Below, one piece after another: positions 12,055 to 20,440 of a stretch of DNA of 64,000 nucleotides (its first letter is position 1; each line of letters begins with the position of its first letter). The DNA is from Armatimonadota bacterium (lineage in GTDB: Bacteria; Armatimonadota; Fimbriimonadia; Fimbriimonadales; Fimbriimonadaceae). The stretch is taken from the NCBI GenBank assembly GCA_025360125.1, contig JANYCU010000041.1, positions 62,001 through 126,000 on the forward strand, given 5' to 3'. A program made the translations under genes and the position numbers. The notes under the pieces were generated by a model. The model was given only the letters and a program-made list of their open reading frames with translations. It was not told the origin of the DNA and did not search any database.

Positions 12055-12265
12055 ATTATTTACTCTATTTTAGCTGCCAGCCGTACTGTGAGTCGCACTG
12101 GTATGGCAATGAATCGTTCCATCACCGAGGGATTCGACATTTTTGCAGTTTTTTTTCGAATCCCATTTGCATCGTGTAAATATTCGATCGAATAGTTAAG
12201 AATTCAATGCGGGTTTCCATGCTTGATTTGAATATTGACGCTCCGTCCAACGTAAACTCTTTTAA

Positions 12266-13576
12266 ATGTCCGATCTTTTCGAAGCCGCTGGACTTGATCA
12301 AAACCCCCAGCGACCGCTGGCCGATCGCATGCGCCCGAGAAGCCTCGACGAAGTACTCGGCCAAGACCACCTTCTTGGACCGAACGGGCCAATTCGAAAA
12401 ATGACTGAAGTCGGACGGCTCTCCTCAATGATCCTTTGGGGCCCTCCGGGTACGGGCAAGACGACGATTGCTCGACTCCTTGCCGAGGCTTCCGGCTACG
12501 AGTTCGATCAAATCTCGGCAGTTTTCTCCGGTGTGGCGGATCTGAAGAAGTCCTTCGAAGCAGCGCGAATTCGTCGTATGTCAGGACAATCAACGTTGTT
12601 GTTTGTCGATGAAGTCCATCGCTTTAATCGTGCCCAGCAGGATGGATTTTTGCCGTTCGTCGAACAAGGCGTAGTAACCCTGATCGGAGCAACCACCGAA
12701 AATCCTTCCTTCGAATTGAATGGGGCTTTGCTCTCTCGCTGTCAAGTGTATGTCCTCAAACGATTGGATGATAGCGCTCTCCGCCAGCTATTGAAGAGGG
12801 CCGAAGAACATGAGGGCCGAACGCTGCCCCTCACGGACGAAGCCAGAGAGGCACTGCTTGCTCTAGCCGATGGCGATGGCCGATATTTGTTGACTTTGAC
12901 CGAGACATTGTTCAACATCGGTTCGACCGAACCCCTTTCCACAGCAGAACTGAGCCACTTGCTCCAGAAGCGAAGTCCGGCCTATGACAAGAACAAAGAA
13001 GAGCATTACAACATCATTTCTGCCCTTCATAAGTCGATTCGCGGCTCAGATCCCGACGCTGCCCTTTACTGGCTAGCGAGGATGCTGACTGGCGGCGAAG
13101 ACCCAATGTTCATTCTGAGGCGACTTGTACGAGCAGCCAGTGAAGACATCGGTGCGGCAGATCCACTTTCCATCCTAGTTGCTCATGCAGCAAAGGACAC
13201 TTACGAATTCTTAGGCTCACCCGAAGGAGAACTCGCCATTGCCCAATTGGTCGTTCATCTTGCTTGCGCGCCAAAATCGAACGCGGTTTACAAGGCATTC
13301 GGCACCGCGATGAAAGTGGCGAAAGAGACTGGTTCCCTTGCCCCGCCAACTCATATTCTCAACGCTCCCACGAAACTCATGAAGAACCTGGGTTACGGCG
13401 CAGGGTACGAATACGACCATGATACGGCCGAAGGCTTTTCGGGGCAAAACTACTTCCCCGAGGGAATGGAGCGGCAAACATTCTATAACCCGAAAGGCAA
13501 CGGTGCCGAGGCAAAAATCCGAGAACGCCTGGACCGCTGGGCAAAGATCAGGCTCGAAAAAGATTCAATCCCTTAA
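12266..13576 (+). CDS. rarA: Replication-associated recombination protein A (MgsA/WRNIP1-type AAA+ ATPase)
   Basis: 436 residues, normal for RarA. The N-terminus has PLADRMRPRSLDEVLGQDHLL, typical of clamp-loader relatives. Walker A is GPPGTGKTT (about residues 59-67), Walker B is LLFVDEVHRFN, and sensor 1 is LIGATTENPSF. The C-terminal tetramerisation domain has IRGSDPDAALYWLARML and later the GYGAGYEYDHD motif. RarA acts at stalled replication forks, opening DNA ends and interacting with SSB. Start MSDLFEAAG is the first methionine that gives the conserved N-terminus. It is transcribed alone. The accessory island begins just downstream. Confidence 0.95.
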   Translation: MSDLFEAAGLDQNPQRPLADRMRPRSLDEVLGQDHLLGPNGPIRKMTEVGRLSSMILWGPPGTGKTTIARLLAEASGYEFDQISAVFSGVADLKKSFEAARIRRMSGQSTLLFVDEVHRFNRAQQDGFLPFVEQGVVTLIGATTENPSFELNGALLSRCQVYVLKRLDDSALRQLLKRAEEHEGRTLPLTDEAREALLALADGDGRYLLTLTETLFNIGSTEPLSTAELSHLLQKRSPAYDKNKEEHYNIISALHKSIRGSDPDAALYWLARMLTGGEDPMFILRRLVRAASEDIGAADPLSILVAHAAKDTYEFLGSPEGELAIAQLVVHLACAPKSNAVYKAFGTAMKVAKETGSLAPPTHILNAPTKLMKNLGYGAGYEYDHDTAEGFSGQNYFPEGMERQTFYNPKGNGAEAKIRERLDRWAKIRLEKDSIP

Positions 13577-13988: not shown

Positions 13989-14368
13989 CTTGCAATATCA
14001 ACCAAAAGAGCTTGTCTCAAAAATAAACGCTTACTGCATTGTCCGCCGAAGCGCTGGCGCGATAGCCCGAAAGAATGGTGCCCTACCATAGCCTCAATCA
14101 GGTTCAACTTAGGTTCAAGGAAAACACTACTTACGACAACCTTTTTTGTCGTAACCCAGTGTACACCTGTTTCATTTATAGTGTCCATCCTGCCTGTACC
14201 ACCCAAGCGGGTAGAAGTTGATGGAATCACGAAACGGACAAGATTGAACCTTTTCAAACGCAAAAAGACGGACGCTTGAAGTGAGCATCCGTTCTTATCT
14301 CGTTGGTACTTTGAATCCACAAATTGGCGACTCAAGGCTAAGTCCATATAGCTATTGTACGTGCTTGC
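13989..14368. other. 380-bp segment without a convincing gene; contains an inverted repeat
   Basis: A minus-strand open frame of 122 codons (13979-14347) overlaps the preceding gene start and gives a low-complexity, basic product, so it is not called. TTACGACAA (14131-14139) and TTGTCGTAA (14146-14154) form a 9-bp inverted repeat beside the 3' end of the integrase gene. This is a plausible place for an attachment or arm-type site, but no second copy was found in the window. Confidence 0.4.
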
Positions 14369-15466
14369 TTATGCGAATCTGGATCGCTCAATTTCTGCCT
14401 TTTCTTCCGCCTCTTGAACCAGTTTCCAAAGCTCTTCCATCCAAACGCGCTTCTTCTCGATTCGGGCATGGCTGTAATTTCCGATCGGTCCTTGTTTTAT
14501 TTTCCCGCTCAGTTCAGCGACAATTGAACTCGGACAGGAAAGCTCGTTTTCCATTAGGCTGATGAATGTGTGACGGAGGGCATGGGGCGAAATCACTCTA
14601 ATGCCCGCCCGTTTACACGCGGCTTGGAGGCTTCTAGTTGCGTTGTTTGGCGTGATAAATCCGCCTCGCGTGTCCGAGCAAATGAAAATATCTGAGACTT
14701 GACGACAATTGAGTAGGACTCTGAAAAGCTCTTCGGGGAGCGGTATAAATCTATGGCTATGCTCCGTTTTCAGCGTCTGGGATATCACACAGCCTCCCTT
14801 CTGTTGAAGAACCTGTTGACGGACTTCTAAGACGCCAAATTCATCAATTGCTGATCTAATCACCCCGGTTGCTTCACCAATCCGCAAAGAACAAAAGCCA
14901 GCCAGAATAACAACAGGTAGAGAAAGGCTGTCACAAGCGTTGTAGAGCTTGAATAACTCTTCGGCTGACAAAGCTATTTTCGGCTTGCTCTTCTCTCCAA
15001 ACACTGAAACTCTAGCAACCGGATTCCTTTGAATCAATTCATCATCCAACGCAACGTTCATAACTCTCGAAAAAACGATCTTCGCCTTTCTCAGTGTTAC
15101 TTCCTTAAATCGAAGCGATCCATTTTTGTTTTTGAGTTTTGACCATCGTATGAAAGCCTCTTGAACCGGAACTCGCTTTATGCTATCAATTTTTTCATGC
15201 CCGAAAGTTGGAAGAACCAACGTCTCCATGAAGTAGGCCACTTGCTCTTGCCATGCTCGCGATCTTCCTTCAATCGTGGAGAGAAACGCACCGAAATAGA
15301 ACCCTGCCAGCGTTCGATCATCCTTGAAACTGAGTGATTCCGTTGCTTTACGTTCCGCTTCGTGCCTGTCTTTCGCATAGTAGGATTTTCGTTTTCCCGT
15401 GATAGGACAAATCCCCTTCGCTTCGAATGTCCCGTTCTTTCTTTGGCTTGCGGTTGCTTTGATCAT
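14369..15466 (-). CDS. Phage-type tyrosine integrase
   Basis: 365 residues with the usual phage-integrase order. There is a short N-terminal beta segment (KNGTFEAKGICPITGKRKSYY, an AP2-like arm-binding region), a SAM-like core-binding domain, and the catalytic domain. Catalytic residues: the first Arg in GFCSLRIGEA, the box-II HALRHTFI with H-x-x-R, and the nucleophile Tyr in GNYSHARI. Such enzymes integrate and excise genomic islands or prophages. It overlaps the small HTH gene (15348-15749) by about 119 bases in another frame, as int/xis pairs often do. It appears intact. It is unlike the second recombinase at 17499-18362, which lacks the arm-binding domain. Confidence 0.9.
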   Translation of the reverse strand: MIKATASQRKNGTFEAKGICPITGKRKSYYAKDRHEAERKATESLSFKDDRTLAGFYFGAFLSTIEGRSRAWQEQVAYFMETLVLPTFGHEKIDSIKRVPVQEAFIRWSKLKNKNGSLRFKEVTLRKAKIVFSRVMNVALDDELIQRNPVARVSVFGEKSKPKIALSAEELFKLYNACDSLSLPVVILAGFCSLRIGEATGVIRSAIDEFGVLEVRQQVLQQKGGCVISQTLKTEHSHRFIPLPEELFRVLLNCRQVSDIFICSDTRGGFITPNNATRSLQAACKRAGIRVISPHALRHTFISLMENELSCPSSIVAELSGKIKQGPIGNYSHARIEKKRVWMEELWKLVQEAEEKAEIERSRFA

Positions 15467-15749
15467 GGTTTGTTCTCAGGTTTTGGTTTGGCGCAAAAAG
15501 CTGATCTTTGCTTCTCAACTTTTGAAGCTTCTGGACTGCGTCGTCAAGATCAGAATACGCGAACCAATCATTCCCTAGGTTTGCTACGATCCCCCTTTTG
15601 ATCAGTTCGCGGAGCCGATGGACAGTACAACCAAGATACAACGCGGCTCCGTCAGTGTTCGTTGCAATTGGCGGACGCCCTTGAGGGCGATCATATGAAC
15701 CACAAGCACTGTTGACGTTTCCTCCTTCGATTTGTGCATGTGAGTTCAT
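15348..15749 (-). CDS. Small HTH (excisionase-like) DNA-binding protein
   Basis: About 133 residues from ATG 15747-15749; the frame can also start at a TTG at 15800. A helix-turn-helix of the MerR/excisionase type is suggested by ATNTDGAALYLGCTVHRLRELIKRG, then a wing-like segment NDWFAYSDLDDAV. Excisionases bend DNA to direct the integrase towards excision. Its position directly ahead of, and overlapping, the integrase supports that role. The basic C-terminal tail is translated from sequence shared with the integrase 5' end and may be dispensable. Both start and exact extent are uncertain. Confidence 0.55.
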   Translation of the reverse strand: MNSHAQIEGGNVNSACGSYDRPQGRPPIATNTDGAALYLGCTVHRLRELIKRGIVANLGNDWFAYSDLDDAVQKLQKLRSKDQLFAPNQNLRTNHDQSNRKPKKERDIRSEGDLSYHGKTKILLCERQARSGT

Positions 15750-16273
15750 GAAAAGAACGATACTTTCCGTACCCCCTAAGTTGTGAAGCCCATAATCCAA
15801 GAATTTACGCTATTTTTCCGAGAAATCCCTAGCTTTTGAGCCTGAGTTTTTGTAAATGCTGAGACTGACTTTTGTAAAAGAAATATCCGCGACTTTTGAT
15901 TTTTCAAAAGCGAGTTTGCTCAACGATCACCATTTTTGAAGGAAAGATAATTGGTTCGATCCGAATAGTGCGCGAGGGTGAACCTTTGAGTGTGTGACAG
16001 CTTTTCAAGAGGTATGTGGCTACGCTAATCGCCTCTGGTAAAGCATTGAAATAAGACGGTGAACATGAATCGTGCGTTCTTGGCTTGACGTCTTACCAAG
16101 ATACGGCGTAACACTGCTCAAACTAGCTCATGCATTAAACCGCCAGACATATAACGTTATAGGCCAAATACACTGCTTAAAATAATGCTCGCTCTGGGGC
16201 AGAAACATTGCTCTCTCATGGACGGTTACCTTCTTGTGGTCTCATCCTAAAATCGTGTGTATACTGAACTTCG
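15750..16273. other. 524-bp intergenic region with iterated CTTTTG motifs and a palindrome
   Basis: No gene is supported here. Between 15830 and 15910 short motifs of the CTTTTGA/CTTTTGTAAAAG type recur at least three times, the last being one copy of the 20-bp island repeat. TATAACGTTATA at 16150-16161 is a perfect 12-bp palindrome. Just before the next gene TATACT (16259-16264) could be a -10 element, but no well-spaced -35 was seen. Confidence 0.4.
15891..15910 (+). repeat. 20-bp island repeat, copy 1
   Basis: GACTTTTGATTTTTCAAAAG; 19 of 20 bases match copy 3 (19617-19636). The unit is itself a weak hairpin, with CTTTTGA and TCAAAAG arms around a T-rich loop. It lies in the intergenic region upstream of the integrase/HTH pair. 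Confidence 0.6.
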
Positions 16274-17353
16274 ATGAACTTTGAGGCTTGGATAGGACAG
16301 CTTGTTCCCGTGCTGGACGCCAATCACCCTGGAATAACTCCAACAATGTTGGACGCAAACGCCATGTACCAGGCCTTTGCAAATGGAGTCTCACCAGATG
16401 TGTTTGGAGGTATCCCCACGTTGCCACTCAAGCCAACACCGCAACCCTTAGTCCAGTCATCGCCCGTTGTGATACCTCCAGTTCAGAATTTGCCAGTTTC
16501 GCCACTTGCGACGGCTGAAATTAAACCCAATTGGAGCGCAACAACTAATCAGAACTCATCCAGTCAACCCAAAGCCTCCCTCAACTCAACGCATATGGGA
16601 TTAGCAGTTTTGGGGTTCATGTTAGTAGCTGGCGTAGTTTTTAATCTGTATCTTCGCCTATCCGATCCAGGGTTCCCCCCGGCTCAAGGATTGCCTCAAG
16701 AAGCTCCATTGAACGATACTCAACGGTTGGAAAAAGCAAGGCAGTCTATCTCGACCTGGGCAGGCGATGAATCCACGTATGTTGCAAGCAAGTCCCTCCT
16801 CTCCAGCATCTCAAAAGAGAGTCCGAGTTACAAAGAAGCCCAATCGTTGACCGTCAAGTGGGATGCAAGAAAAAAGGAATCGGAAAAACATAAAGCGGAA
16901 AAGGCAAAGGCGGACGAAGAGTTGCAACGGCAACATGAGCGGCAGGAAGCATTAGACGCGATTAAGAATGAAAAGAAGGATATGGCCTACTTCACGGGCG
17001 AGGGAGATGTTAAGGTGGCTGTGCCAACCGTGAATTTGAAGAGATCGACGGAAAGTCATGAAGCGTCAGGTAAATCAACCTTTGTTCACGTCTTTATTGG
17101 AGTAAAAAACGTCGGGACTGAGACTATTCATGCAAATCCAAATGATTTCACATTGGCAGATTCTGACGGTAATACGGCCTCGCCCGATACGGACACATAC
17201 GGCCTTAGCAATTATTTCAACGCTGTGAATTTGAGTCCTGGGCAACAGACATCCGGTTGGCTCATTTTCTATTTGAAAAAAGACGAACGCTACACCCTTA
17301 CTAGAAGTGGCATGGTAAGTGGTTCTAACGTTACAAAGACCATAATTCCCTAA
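16274..17353 (+). CDS. Membrane-anchored protein with DUF4352-like extracellular domain
   Basis: 359 residues. The first 110 residues are soluble and proline-rich (repeated VxxPPVQ, PLKPTPQP). One transmembrane segment follows at about 113-135 (MGLAVLGFMLVAGVVFNLYL). Then come a charged helical or coiled-coil region at about 150-235, rich in Lys/Glu, and a C-terminal immunoglobulin-like domain. Its phrases FVHVFIGVKNVGTETIHANPN and LSPGQQTSGWLIFYL match the DUF4352/Telluride pattern seen in secreted lipoproteins. Function is unknown. It is an orphan in the island with no partner in the same transcript. The ATG at 16274 fits a signal-less type II anchor. Confidence 0.65.
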   Translation: MNFEAWIGQLVPVLDANHPGITPTMLDANAMYQAFANGVSPDVFGGIPTLPLKPTPQPLVQSSPVVIPPVQNLPVSPLATAEIKPNWSATTNQNSSSQPKASLNSTHMGLAVLGFMLVAGVVFNLYLRLSDPGFPPAQGLPQEAPLNDTQRLEKARQSISTWAGDESTYVASKSLLSSISKESPSYKEAQSLTVKWDARKKESEKHKAEKAKADEELQRQHERQEALDAIKNEKKDMAYFTGEGDVKVAVPTVNLKRSTESHEASGKSTFVHVFIGVKNVGTETIHANPNDFTLADSDGNTASPDTDTYGLSNYFNAVNLSPGQQTSGWLIFYLKKDERYTLTRSGMVSGSNVTKTIIP

Positions 17354-17393
17354 ACTAGCAAGAGCGGTTTAATCTCCGTCAACCTAAAAACGC

Positions 17394-17413
17394 ATTTTGA
17401 AAAATCAAAGGTC
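17394..17413 (-). repeat. 20-bp island repeat, copy 2 (inverted)
   Basis: Reverse complement of this site is GACCTTTGATTTTTCAAAAT, one base different from copy 3 and two from copy 1. It lies between the DUF4352-like gene and the 3' end of the recombinase. With copy 3 in opposite orientation it brackets the recombinase, lipoprotein and XRE genes. Confidence 0.6.
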
Positions 17414-17498
17414 TCGGCCCTAACAGAAATTGCCGGACGATTTACGGCGGGCTACGATGCACAACCCCGCCCCCTTAAAGGTTCGTGCCACCCGTTAT

Positions 17499-18362
17499 CT
17501 ACCCTTTCAAGTACATCCCCGAACTTTCGGAAGGTCGAGCATGAGTGTATTTACTCGTGGTAGCCAAAGAGCTATGCGCGAGAGTTGCCTGAACCAAATG
17601 GATCGGTGCGCCATTGTCGAGACTGTGTGAAGCATGAGCATGGCGCAACCAGTGAGATGAAACATTTCCCGGGATTCCCGCACGTCGAGCGGCCCCTGAT
17701 ACGATCCGGTGAACTTGCTCTACACTCAGCCTCGAATGGTTCCTGGAAACCAGAAGGGGAGCCGTCCCTTCCCTGTTTCCTTTCAACTCTTCAAGCTTTT
17801 TGAAGATCTTCGCAGGAATACGGACTGCATGGGTTTTGCCGCCCTTTCCGAATAACGTTAATTGGCCAGCATCTCCGGCTTTTTGGACGTCCTCGCAGGA
17901 CAGTCCGCACAGTTCCGAAACGCGACAGCCCGAATAGTATAGGGCTTCAAGGATGGTTCGGTTCCGCTCTGACGGCTCTAGCAAAATCATTTCAAGCACT
18001 TGTCTTTCGTCCAAGATTCGGTTAGCAAGAGTCGATTTCAATTTAGGCAAAGAGACAACTGCACCAACATTGAAACGAAGGAAACCAACTTTTTGCCCGT
18101 AGCTCAAAAGGGACTTGACTGATGACAGAACTCTGCTTCGAGAAGAATCAGCAAGAGCACCTATTGCCAGGTCAAACCCGTGAACGTCGCTAACCGTCAC
18201 TTCGCCCAGGCTCTTCCGGCAGAACAATCCAAACCGCTCAACATCCGCTCGGTAAGCCCTTTTCGTATGTTCGCTTTTCCCATGAAGCCATAGGTTCATA
18301 AGTTGATCGTCATTCTTTGCACCACTGACAGAAGCGGGGACGGGAAGGGTCAAGTTAGACAT
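17499..18362 (-). CDS. XerC/D-type tyrosine recombinase
   Basis: 287 residues, the length of XerC/XerD, with a SAM-like core-binding domain (about 20-100) and a catalytic domain. Catalytic signature: Arg in SGCRVSELCGL, beta-hairpin Lys in LFGKGGKTHAVRIP, HWLRHAHASH (H-x-x-R), a following His in ATLAHSSLATTS and nucleophile Tyr in KYTHARP. All are present, so it should be active. It has no arm-binding domain, so it would act on a simple core site. A 13-6-13 bp palindrome sits 17 bp upstream of its start. It is encoded within a tRNA-linked island, so it is more likely a mobile-element recombinase than the chromosomal XerC or XerD, though this cannot be excluded from one window. Confidence 0.88.
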   Translation of the reverse strand: MSNLTLPVPASVSGAKNDDQLMNLWLHGKSEHTKRAYRADVERFGLFCRKSLGEVTVSDVHGFDLAIGALADSSRSRVLSSVKSLLSYGQKVGFLRFNVGAVVSLPKLKSTLANRILDERQVLEMILLEPSERNRTILEALYYSGCRVSELCGLSCEDVQKAGDAGQLTLFGKGGKTHAVRIPAKIFKKLEELKGNREGTAPLLVSRNHSRLSVEQVHRIVSGAARRAGIPGNVSSHWLRHAHASHSLDNGAPIHLVQATLAHSSLATTSKYTHARPSESSGMYLKG

Positions 18363-18378
18363 GATTTTGCTACTCTAC

Positions 18379-18410
18379 GAGTGCAAGATAAGTGACGTTA
18401 TCTTGCACTC
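18379..18410. promoter_or_regulatory. Palindromic core-like site (13-bp arms, 6-bp spacer) beside the recombinase
   Basis: The left arm GAGTGCAAGATAA (18379-18391) and the right arm (18398-18410) are perfect inverted copies flanking GTGACG. Arms ending ATAA and beginning TTAT around exactly 6 bp copy the architecture of dif and related Xer core sites. It lies 17 bp upstream of the recombinase start, so it could be either a recombination core or an autoregulatory operator. Confidence 0.6.
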
Positions 18411-18623
18411 AGTAATCATACCCAACCGTTTTAACGGTTTAAAACAAATATCACGACTTAGAAGACCTTGGCACTCCTAAACACGCCCTACAGCCGTTTT
18501 AACGCCAACAATGCGATGTTTGTAAGCGATACCATCGTCCGATCCTGGGGAAAAATGGCTCAATAGCTCTAAATTCCGATTTCCGGTTGGATGTTGAGAT
18601 TCCTAAAACCTCATGCTGAGACG

Positions 18624-19313
18624 CTACTTCTCAACAAGCTTTGTATGGAAGTCGGCGTACACGAGGACTTTCCAAACGGAACCTTCAACGACTGCACATT
18701 CCCACGTTGAGGTGTCTGTAACTCCGCGAAGCTTTACACCAGGAGATGTAATTCTGAATCCTGGGTCAATTGTTTGTCCATGTAGATAGGGATTAAGGTC
18801 ATTTGGTTGACCGGGCCAAGTCTCATCATTATCCGAACTATAGATTCGAATTGCATCGCAAATTTGGTCTGCATTGACCTTCAACTCGATTCGCTCCTTT
18901 ATAGCTTGTGGCGTGAATTTCTTATTTGACCGATTCCACTCGTCGGTAGAACCATGAAACGCCTTTAGACTGATTCGGTTTTTCTCATCCTTCGAAGCTT
19001 CGTCCTTCGTCAAACTGCTGAAAAAGAGGGTTTCGTGATCGTTGCTAACATCGAAATATCCCTTTATGTCACTGTGCGAAGGTGAACTTGGATCATTTGA
19101 ACTCAAGATAATTTCGGTTGGCCCTGTTCTTCGCCAATTTAGATTCATGTCGGAAGCGCGAGCATGACCGTCATTCATAAATTCCAAGTAATTCGGTGTT
19201 CCCGCTCCCCATTTACCAACAAGTGGGTCGGTACCGCGACATGATACTAGAGTAAGTCCAACCGCCAGGATTAACAGGCTAAACGAGATCGGCGGTTTTG
19301 GATCGGTTCTCAT
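18624..19313 (-). CDS. Lipoprotein of unknown function with pseudopilin-like segment
   Basis: 229 residues with a lipoprotein signal: a basic N-terminus, a hydrophobic stretch and lipobox LTLVSC, giving Cys25 as lipid anchor. After it comes LVGKWG, a lipocalin-like opening, and a beta-rich region. Residues about 145-175 contain AIRIYSSDNDETWPG followed by DLNPYL, closely resembling the calcium-loop region of type II secretion pseudopilins (YxxDNxxxP). The C-terminus ends VLVYADFHTKLVEK, similar to the VxVxFADxH end of the prepilin-type family. It may be a lipoprotein derivative of that family. It sits alone between the recombinase promoter region and the XRE gene. Confidence 0.6.
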   Translation of the reverse strand: MRTDPKPPISFSLLILAVGLTLVSCRGTDPLVGKWGAGTPNYLEFMNDGHARASDMNLNWRRTGPTEIILSSNDPSSPSHSDIKGYFDVSNDHETLFFSSLTKDEASKDEKNRISLKAFHGSTDEWNRSNKKFTPQAIKERIELKVNADQICDAIRIYSSDNDETWPGQPNDLNPYLHGQTIDPGFRITSPGVKLRGVTDTSTWECAVVEGSVWKVLVYADFHTKLVEK

Positions 19314-19367
19314 GCGAAAAGTGAAGTTGCTACTCAGTCAGTGGCAGACTTTTAGGAACCATACCTC

Positions 19368-19625
19368 TTGTTGGTATCCAGTGGCAACCCTCATGTAAAT
19401 GACCATCTTCGGCAAATGCTTGCTCGCGCTCGCGAAGATAGGGGTCTGACTCAGAGACAGCTTTGCAAAAAGCTCTCTCGAAAAGCCACGTATATTCAGA
19501 AGATCGAATCAGGCGAAACAAAGAAACTTGATGTTGCAGAAGTTATGTCGATCTTGGACACCCTCGAACTAGATCGGAATGAGTTTTTCAGAGAATTCCT
19601 CGCTGGAATTGCTCTTGACCTTTGA
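19368..19625 (+). CDS. XRE-family HTH transcriptional regulator
   Basis: 85 residues, a single Cro/C1-type helix-turn-helix: MLARAREDRGLTQRQLCKK, then LSRKATYIQKIESGE. The best supported start is TTG at 19368, which has AGGA about 10 bases ahead. The short size and lack of a sensor domain fit island or phage-type repressors. Its stop codon lies inside copy 3 of the 20-bp island repeat. It is divergent from the lipoprotein gene and could regulate that gene or the recombinase, but no operator was proven. Confidence 0.8.
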   Translation: MLVSSGNPHVNDHLRQMLARAREDRGLTQRQLCKKLSRKATYIQKIESGETKKLDVAEVMSILDTLELDRNEFFREFLAGIALDL

Positions 19626-19636
19626 TTTTTCAAAAG
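19617..19636 (+). repeat. 20-bp island repeat, copy 3 (overlaps the XRE stop codon)
   Basis: GACCTTTGATTTTTCAAAAG. The TGA stop of the XRE gene is part of the repeat. Orientation matches copy 1 and is opposite to copy 2. Confidence 0.6.
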
Positions 19637-19670
19637 TTGAAGGGTGCCGTTGCCCTTCAAAGCTTCTTAT

Positions 19671-20195
19671 TTAGGGATGTGTTTCCCAAAGCGGATCAAG
19701 TGACTCAACGCTTAGTTGCCGTTCAGAAAAGAAATATTTGATGCCTTTAATCAATCCAAAGCCAATCGTCGCTCCTGCAACCGGAATCGCGGCGGCAACA
19801 ATTACACCCACCACCATACCGCCTCCGAACAATCCTCCGAGTGCCGCTAAACCCGACGTAATGCCCGCTCCTGAAAGTCCAGGTATGCCAAGGGCACTTA
19901 TAGCGGCTGTAATTGATCCAAATCCAAGTGCTCCCCCACCCGTGCTACCGATAGCCTCTGAAATCTTCTCACGTTCGGCCTTAGAGAGCTTCGAAAACCG
20001 TTTGAAGCCGATTTCGATCATGATCCCTGTTTGCTTGGTCATTTCGTCCGAAGGGAGAGTAACTTGAGATAGGAGCCTTGCAAGCGTAGGCTCTGAGCAA
20101 CCGATTGCCTTCGCAGTTTTCCGAACTGTAAGTTCATTTGACTCTATGAACGCGGCTAGAATGGGTGCGTAATTTTCACGGGAAAGCTCATTCAC
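19671..20195 (-). CDS. HTH protein fused to a glycine-rich hydrophobic tail
   Basis: 174 residues. Residues 1-50 read like a short HTH (TVRKTAKAIGCSEPTLARLLS). A linker follows, and then residues about 85-150 are a long glycine/alanine-rich hydrophobic stretch (GGGALGFGSITAAISALG, later GLFGGGMVVGVIVAAAIPV) resembling the glycine-zipper membrane segments of bacteriocins, holins or channel-forming toxins. The C-terminus is soluble. No family is recognised. The HTH plus membrane-active segment is unusual and could point to a membrane-bound regulator or a toxin-like island product. Repeats in its upstream region suggest regulation. Confidence 0.55.
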   Translation of the reverse strand: MNELSRENYAPILAAFIESNELTVRKTAKAIGCSEPTLARLLSQVTLPSDEMTKQTGIMIEIGFKRFSKLSKAEREKISEAIGSTGGGALGFGSITAAISALGIPGLSGAGITSGLAALGGLFGGGMVVGVIVAAAIPVAGATIGFGLIKGIKYFFSERQLSVESLDPLWETHP

Positions 20196-20227
20196 GCTGT
20201 CAAGAATACCGATATAGTATTCATCCG

Positions 20228-20271
20228 TACACTGTCATTCACTGGGTTCGTACGACAGAATGTACGACAAT
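20228..20271. promoter_or_regulatory. Repeated GTACGACA elements upstream of the HTH/glycine-rich gene
   Basis: CGTACGACA (20251-20259) and TGTACGACA (20263-20271) are direct repeats 12 bp apart. CGTACACTGTC (20228-20238) is a near-inverted partner of the segment at 20256-20268. The cluster lies 33-76 bp upstream of the minus-strand start at 20195, a likely operator position. Confidence 0.4.
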
Positions 20272-20353
20272 CACCCCTTGTAAACTCTTAGAAAAACTCC
20301 ACACTAACCGCTTGTTCTACCTATAGCCAGAATCAAACAGGTAGAAATACCTT

Positions 20354-20440
20354 TGGTGCCCAGGAAAGGACTCGAACCTTCACATCATTTCTGACACTAA
20401 TACCTGAAACTAGCGCGTCTACCAATTTCGCCACCTGGGC
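20354..20440 (-). tRNA. tRNA-Leu (anticodon CAG)
   Basis: Read on the minus strand. The acceptor GCCCAGG pairs with CCTGGGC. The D arm is GCGAAATTGGTAGACGC. Stem CTAGT with loop TTCAGGT gives anticodon CAG. A long variable arm of the class II type follows, and the T arm contains GGTTCGAGTCC. The discriminator A and CCA are encoded (20354-20357). Its 3' end points towards the accessory island, the usual orientation for islands integrated at a tRNA 3' end. Confidence 0.95.

Follow-up and report, generated by a model that had tools for sequence, protein, structure and literature searches.

We found that a perfect 32-bp palindrome at positions 18379-18410 of the window, the 64,000-nucleotide stretch of Armatimonadota contig JANYCU010000041.1 analysed here, lies directly upstream of a gene for a simple tyrosine recombinase with homology to Xer proteins (P0001, hereafter Rec287; 17499-18362, minus strand), of which it is very probably the cognate core site. 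The reading as a whole, in which the palindrome is the core site of Rec287 and both together form a module for the resolution of multimers or tandem copies of mobile elements, is in our view probable. We hold our overall confidence at this level because binding, cleavage and a resolution function of Rec287 are what we infer from sequence, and because the island that carries the module has no recognised replicon.

The predicted core site was read directly from the window and consists of two perfectly inverted 13-bp arms, GAGTGCAAGATAA and TTATCTTGCACTC, around the 6-bp spacer gtgacg, with ATAA and TTAT at the inner ends. It is unstranded and ends 16 nt from the ATG of the recombinase gene. A first-pass annotation of this DNA had described the 13-6-13 structure with these inner ends, and we recovered it at exactly the same position. 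We also reproduced the count of 7 of 11 bases identical between the right arm and the E. coli XerD-box consensus TTATGTTAAAT, in the form quoted by that annotation. With up to 3 mismatches allowed, the draft genome (4.13 Mb) contained no second copy of the 32-bp site, for which a search had been proposed there. In ten Markov resamplings of the window the mean number of such repeats (arms of at least 13, spacers of 3-10) was 0.0. Palindromy alone is weak proof, because the window contains a few more inverted repeats as long as this one; the proof lies in conservation across phyla.

Rec287 has a length of 287 amino acids (aa). Pfam (PF00589 and PF02899) assigned residues 24-88 to a core-binding SAM-like domain and residues 131-277 to a catalytic domain and showed no other, which leaves no room for an arm-binding domain, as had been proposed at first pass; the fold is evident at sequence level. 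The catalytic residues R147, K176, H237, R240, H263 and Y272 are all intact, and at each of these positions the residue is shared by 127 or more of the 130 family members. Among NCBIfam models Rec287 ranks with XerA, XerC and XerD, yet it scored far under all equivalog cut-offs (144.8 bits versus 335.2 for XerC, 135.7 versus 329.6 for XerD and 153.9 versus 220 for archaeal XerA). A FastTree phylogeny confined to the family and to 28 chromosomal Xers from relatives of the host, and thus without references of the kind of Cre or XerH, set the Rec287 family apart from the chromosomal proteins with a support of 1.0. The C-terminal signature HARPxxSSxxY was present in 82 of the 130 family members and in none of the 28 chromosomal Xers. 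Contigs C22 and C51 of the host carry two further Xer-like genes, and other Xer-like genes were present in all 61 relatives (host counted). The label "orphan" given earlier to the recombinase is thus correct in so far as Rec287 is distinct from the host genes on C22 and C51, but it is a member of a large family.

Homologues of Rec287 (38-53% identity) were found on plasmids, phages and contigs of Cyanobacteria, Planctomycetes, Alphaproteobacteria, Rhodothermales, Armatimonadetes and others. They were encoded on 35 plasmids, mainly cyanobacterial, on viral contigs and two sequenced phages of acetic acid bacteria, and on genome contigs including Methylobacterium and Acetobacter, of which 80 were kept at 41-53% identity. 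In the host's order only 2 of 113 genomes carried a family recombinase (E≤1e-45), and Rec287 is therefore not a fixed chromosomal gene of this order. Among the neighbours in 138 loci or replicons, ParA homologues occurred in 34 and terminase homologues in 17, and annotated plasmids with a family recombinase also encoded parA along with genes for replication and mobilisation.

When the 80 loci were scanned with the arms of the window, about half had a related site upstream of the recombinase, at a distance of 14-450 nt; at up to 5 mismatches there were 58 matches in real loci versus 5 in shuffled loci. We further applied a palindrome rule free of any arm sequence (12-bp arms, at least 9 of 12 positions complementary, TAA or TTA at an inner end, 6-bp spacer) within 600 bp of the gene. 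Of 136 loci, 65 had a match upstream of the family gene and only one had a match downstream. A stricter rule, run over 1.87 Mb of loci, gave 29 matches, every one of them upstream of a family recombinase and 26 within 450 nt; the other three, all on contigs of Rhodothermales or other Bacteroidota, were 1.2-3.2 kb from the gene. The earlier suggestion that the site is dif/lox-like and serves the neighbouring recombinase as its core site was borne out in that the motif accompanies the same family across phyla and occurs almost nowhere else in the loci read. A motif-first scan of viral contigs agreed with this in part: it gave 16 exact matches, 10 of which were within 70 bp of a family recombinase, and the complete plasmids L134, L148 and L132 each carried a single copy of the site beside the gene.

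The arms also changed with the protein. Between lineages they varied and were palindromic throughout (AGATAA..TTATCT, ACATAA..TTATGT, GGGATAA..TTATCCC), and the 6-bp spacer was found in the related sites of the family as well. Arm distance and protein distance were correlated in the 44 loci left after dropping proteins more than 90% identical (Mantel r=0.42, with 0 of 5000 permutations as high), whereas the neighbouring 24 bp gave r=0.08. Where proteins were more than 50% different, the arms differed at about one third of their positions and the flanks were random at about 0.75. Conservation of the arms past 50% protein divergence, together with their co-changing, is as expected of a site that is read by the protein.

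Several points weigh against this reading. Under the rules used here about half of the loci were without a clear site, including plasmids L145, L149 and L150; some of these sites have diverged or are located elsewhere. Many of the loci are closely related, the Mantel test ignores phylogeny, and the saturated flanks are an imperfect control. In addition, no replication or partition gene was recognised in the island of the window.

Some loci showed deviating arrangements. In L064, L070 and L097 (Rhodothermales/Bacteroidetes) the site was 1.2-3.2 kb from the recombinase, in one case near a miaA-like gene, and it is possibly a chromosomal dif system. In the Planctomycetes loci L036, L037, L041, L044, L049 and L053 the right half-sites lie where the recombinase gene begins, and some of them seem to include its ATG. 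Published dif prediction was unsuccessful in Cyanobacteria and Planctomycetes (PMC3025954), two phyla that often carry the Rec287 family. The viral contigs L216, L218 and L223 had the site GACGCAAGATAAgccactTTATCTTGCGTT in common, with no family recombinase in the stretch examined, and could be elements that borrow the recombinase of another. In gene orientation the spacer of the window reads cgtcac and that of L042 and L153 gtgacg, its reverse complement; given this spacer orientation, the site of the window may be inverted relative to its own gene.

Acetobacter phage phiAP1 encodes two tyrosine recombinases, the Rec287 homologue being the second beside a classical integrase. The attachment (att) site of this phage was mapped to tRNA-Ser, and a vector with the integrase and attP integrates at tRNA-Ser (PMC8566455). 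We located the published att sequence at the start of the phage record, beside the integrase (176-1414). The Rec287 homologue (12403-13278) is encoded before the terminase, with the palindrome CGCAAGATAA gtgtag TTATCTTGCG 69 nt upstream of its gene and 12 kb from the att site. Phage phiKM1 showed the same arrangement with changed arms (GGGACATAA ctgtag TTATGCCCC). The classical integrase and the palindrome recombinase are kept apart in both phages, so that in such elements integration is a function distinct from that of the palindrome system.

Phages of acetic acid bacteria (L211 at about 12250-12360, L106 and L164-L171) further contained conserved half-sites ahead of the core site, at a fixed spacing of -57 and -30. 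In phiKM1 a half-site changes together with the core, and there is a likeness to the accessory sites of TnpI-type resolvases. Accessory sites of this kind (TnpI/IRS-like) were rejected as a general feature of the family, half-sites numbering 52 in real versus 29 in shuffled loci and coming mostly from the clade of these phages; they were clear only in the phages of acetic acid bacteria and relatives, and we do not claim them for the window.

In the window, Rec287 and the palindrome are encoded on an island of about 6.3 kb (14084-20353, ends approximate) between rarA and a tRNA-Leu gene (anticodon CAG; 20354-20440, minus strand), which is the integration target. Comparison of the junctions with two relatives showed that rarA, tRNA-Leu(CAG) and pilB adjoin there, with the tRNA in the same place; G009 has about 120 bp between rarA and the tRNA, and G002 has about 630 bp. 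In the window this distance is 6.8 kb, and the island is absent from the relatives. The extent of the island was deduced from its left flank AGAATGGTGCCC, which equals the empty site in G009, and from the 8-bp sequence TGGTGCCC, which borders the island on the left (14076-14083) and recurs inside the 3' end of the tRNA (20354-20361). The island probably ends at this repeat, although 8 bp is short for an att core. The end repeat differs from the palindrome, which is 2-4 kb from the island ends.

The island also encodes its own arm-type tyrosine integrase, Int365 (14369-15466, minus strand), which matched Pfam PF00589 above and Phage_int_M below the cut-off. Homologues of Int365 (43-47%) in G034 and G035 adjoin tRNA-Leu genes, each preceded by the small open reading frame described below; there it is the integrase end that adjoins the tRNA, whereas in the window the integrase is at the opposite, far end. 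Judged from these comparisons, Int365 and not Rec287 most likely put the island into tRNA-Leu. Int365 reads LSGK where its relatives read LAGH, which places a Lys at the catalytic His position; the protein is possibly inactive, and the island may for this reason now be fixed.

Among the other genes of the island, a 150-aa open reading frame (15348-15800, minus strand; start uncertain, no family match) overlaps the integrase gene and lies upstream of it. It is a candidate excisionase or helix-turn-helix partner, and its homologues are encoded directly upstream of the integrase in L213, L214 and L215. An XRE-type helix-turn-helix regulator of 85 aa (19368-19625, plus strand) matched Pfam HTH_31 and HTH_3. 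A 174-aa open reading frame (19671-20195) has a helix-turn-helix-like N-terminus and a glycine-rich hydrophobic half; its only match, to mad1 in a defence library, was very weak (E 0.0044). The repeat CTTTTGATTTTTCAAAAG occurs three times, always within the island (15891-15910, 17395-17413 in inverted orientation, and 19617-19636), and elsewhere in the genome we found one match only, with 2 mismatches. It is a candidate operator of the helix-turn-helix regulator of the island and looks more like an operator than like the terminal inverted repeats of a smaller element.

Four other explanations were considered. The module might be a relic that was captured with the island and is now idle in this host. 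The Lys in Int365 and an att repeat of only 8 bp, which suggest that the island may be fixed, would fit this, as would the failure to recognise a replication gene in the island. Yet the reading frame of Rec287 is open and catalytically complete and the site is perfectly symmetric, where decay would blur the symmetry, and we therefore consider a relic unlikely.

Slightly less likely still is a role as operator only, in which a repressor or Rec287 itself would bind the palindrome and control the recombinase gene without any recombination. Its position close to the ATG, beside a weak promoter-like pair at 18443-18415, agrees with such a role, and so do those Planctomycetes sites that seem to overlap the start codon. 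Against it, the distance between site and gene ranges from about 16 to about 450 nt, no regulator gene was seen in common among the loci in the limited set of neighbours looked at, the arms track the recombinase sequence, and the palindrome has the 6-bp spacer and the ATAA/TTAT ends of an Xer-type crossover site. The first-pass annotation had allowed for an operator that merely looks like a core site; the varying distance makes this unlikely as the sole role, and autoregulation is possible as a side role.

The same annotation had also proposed the att site of a self-mobilising element, with Rec287 integrating and excising the island through the palindrome. The site does adjoin a simple recombinase, and integrases of Brujita-type phages as well as XerT are simple recombinases able to mobilise elements (PMC8138268). 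We nevertheless consider this improbable and did not retain the proposal: the palindrome is without a second copy, the island ends at tRNA-Leu with a different repeat and carries a separate integrase of the tRNA-Leu type, and 12 kb separate the att site and the palindrome of phiAP1. An att system like that of phages or integrative and conjugative elements, with a copy of the site at either end of the element, was likewise rejected on the single copy and the ends at tRNA-Leu. Single-recombinase dif systems adjoin their gene in streptococci and epsilonproteobacteria (PMC5357621), but that the palindrome and Rec287 form the chromosomal dif/Xer system of this host, and resolve chromosome dimers, is very improbable and was rejected for the order as a whole, given a family recombinase in only 2 of 113 genomes, here within an island, and other Xer-like genes in all 61 relatives.

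Our best reading is that Rec287 and its site constitute a single-recombinase multimer-resolution module resembling Cre/lox or XerS/difSL, often encoded beside parA. Two Rec287 protomers would occupy the two arms, two such sites would pair, and strand exchange would take place where the 6-bp spacer meets the arms, in the manner of Xer/dif and Cre/lox. With normally one site per replicon, beside the gene, the reaction would require two copies of the element on one molecule. The main task would then be to return a plasmid, phage or excised island that has formed dimers, multimers or tandem copies to the monomeric state, for inheritance or packaging. In the window the module would be a passenger: a different, arm-type integrase would have brought the small island that carries it into tRNA-Leu. 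Resolution of multimers or tandem copies is the most likely use because of the one site per replicon, the association with partition and packaging genes, the separate integrase and the precedents of Cre/lox, XerS/difSL and plasmid-borne XerL.

Cre/loxP and its relatives on phage-plasmids (VCre, SCre, Vika, Nigri, Panto) likewise combine one recombinase with one palindromic site near the gene and one site per replicon, as seen on the three complete plasmids, and like the Rec287 family they occur on plasmids and phages. Lox-type sites are 34 bp long with an 8-bp spacer (PMC4957104), in contrast to the 32 bp and 6-bp spacer found here, and Rec287 is Xer-like with 287 aa. XerS/difSL and XerH/difH also link one recombinase to a dif-like site, the centre of difH being 6 bp; these are chromosomal systems, whereas the Rec287 family is sporadic, borne on mobile elements and associated with another site sequence. 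From XerC/XerD the family is set apart by the equivalog scores, by a conserved C-terminus unlike that of the chromosomal Xers and by its sporadic occurrence in the host's order, which does not correspond to vertical inheritance of one pair per chromosome. The XerL/dif system of Coxiella comprises a plasmid Xer recombinase with an immediately adjacent palindromic dif (PMC9765430), but it is restricted to Legionellales and serves the chromosome too, whereas the Rec287 family spans phyla. The Xer-like recombinase of pBAS2 from Caldicellulosiruptor is plasmid-encoded as well and thought to resolve multimers (PMC5779722); compared by description only, it differs in that no core site was identified for pBAS2. 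Simple cyanobacterial recombinases without an arm-binding domain make up the "Cyan" subgroup (PMC8138268), which was also compared by description only. Elements that exploit the host Xer proteins (IMEX) have no recombinase of their own and an attP that mimics the host dif, unlike the present site with its recombinase gene 16 nt away.

The mechanism class of Rec287 and its site is already known. In the open-access literature, which misses most subscription papers, we found no description of this pair of recombinase family and site. This is weak evidence that no named family has this site, breadth and role, and the family may overlap with the "Cyan" subgroup. We regard it as possible, though a little short of probable, that these recombinases represent a phylum-spanning and so far unnamed family of single-recombinase/site modules on mobile elements, in some of them second to an ordinary integrase, whose arms co-diverged with the protein into several distinct specificities and which Rhodothermales may use as a chromosomal dif. 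The results provide a testable recombinase-site pair for many genes that are annotated merely as "tyrosine-type recombinase/integrase". Many such genes probably encode resolution enzymes rather than integrases, which is relevant when integrated elements are predicted from them. The natural co-variation of arm and protein could further be used to learn how Xer-like recombinases read DNA and to develop new orthogonal recombination tools.
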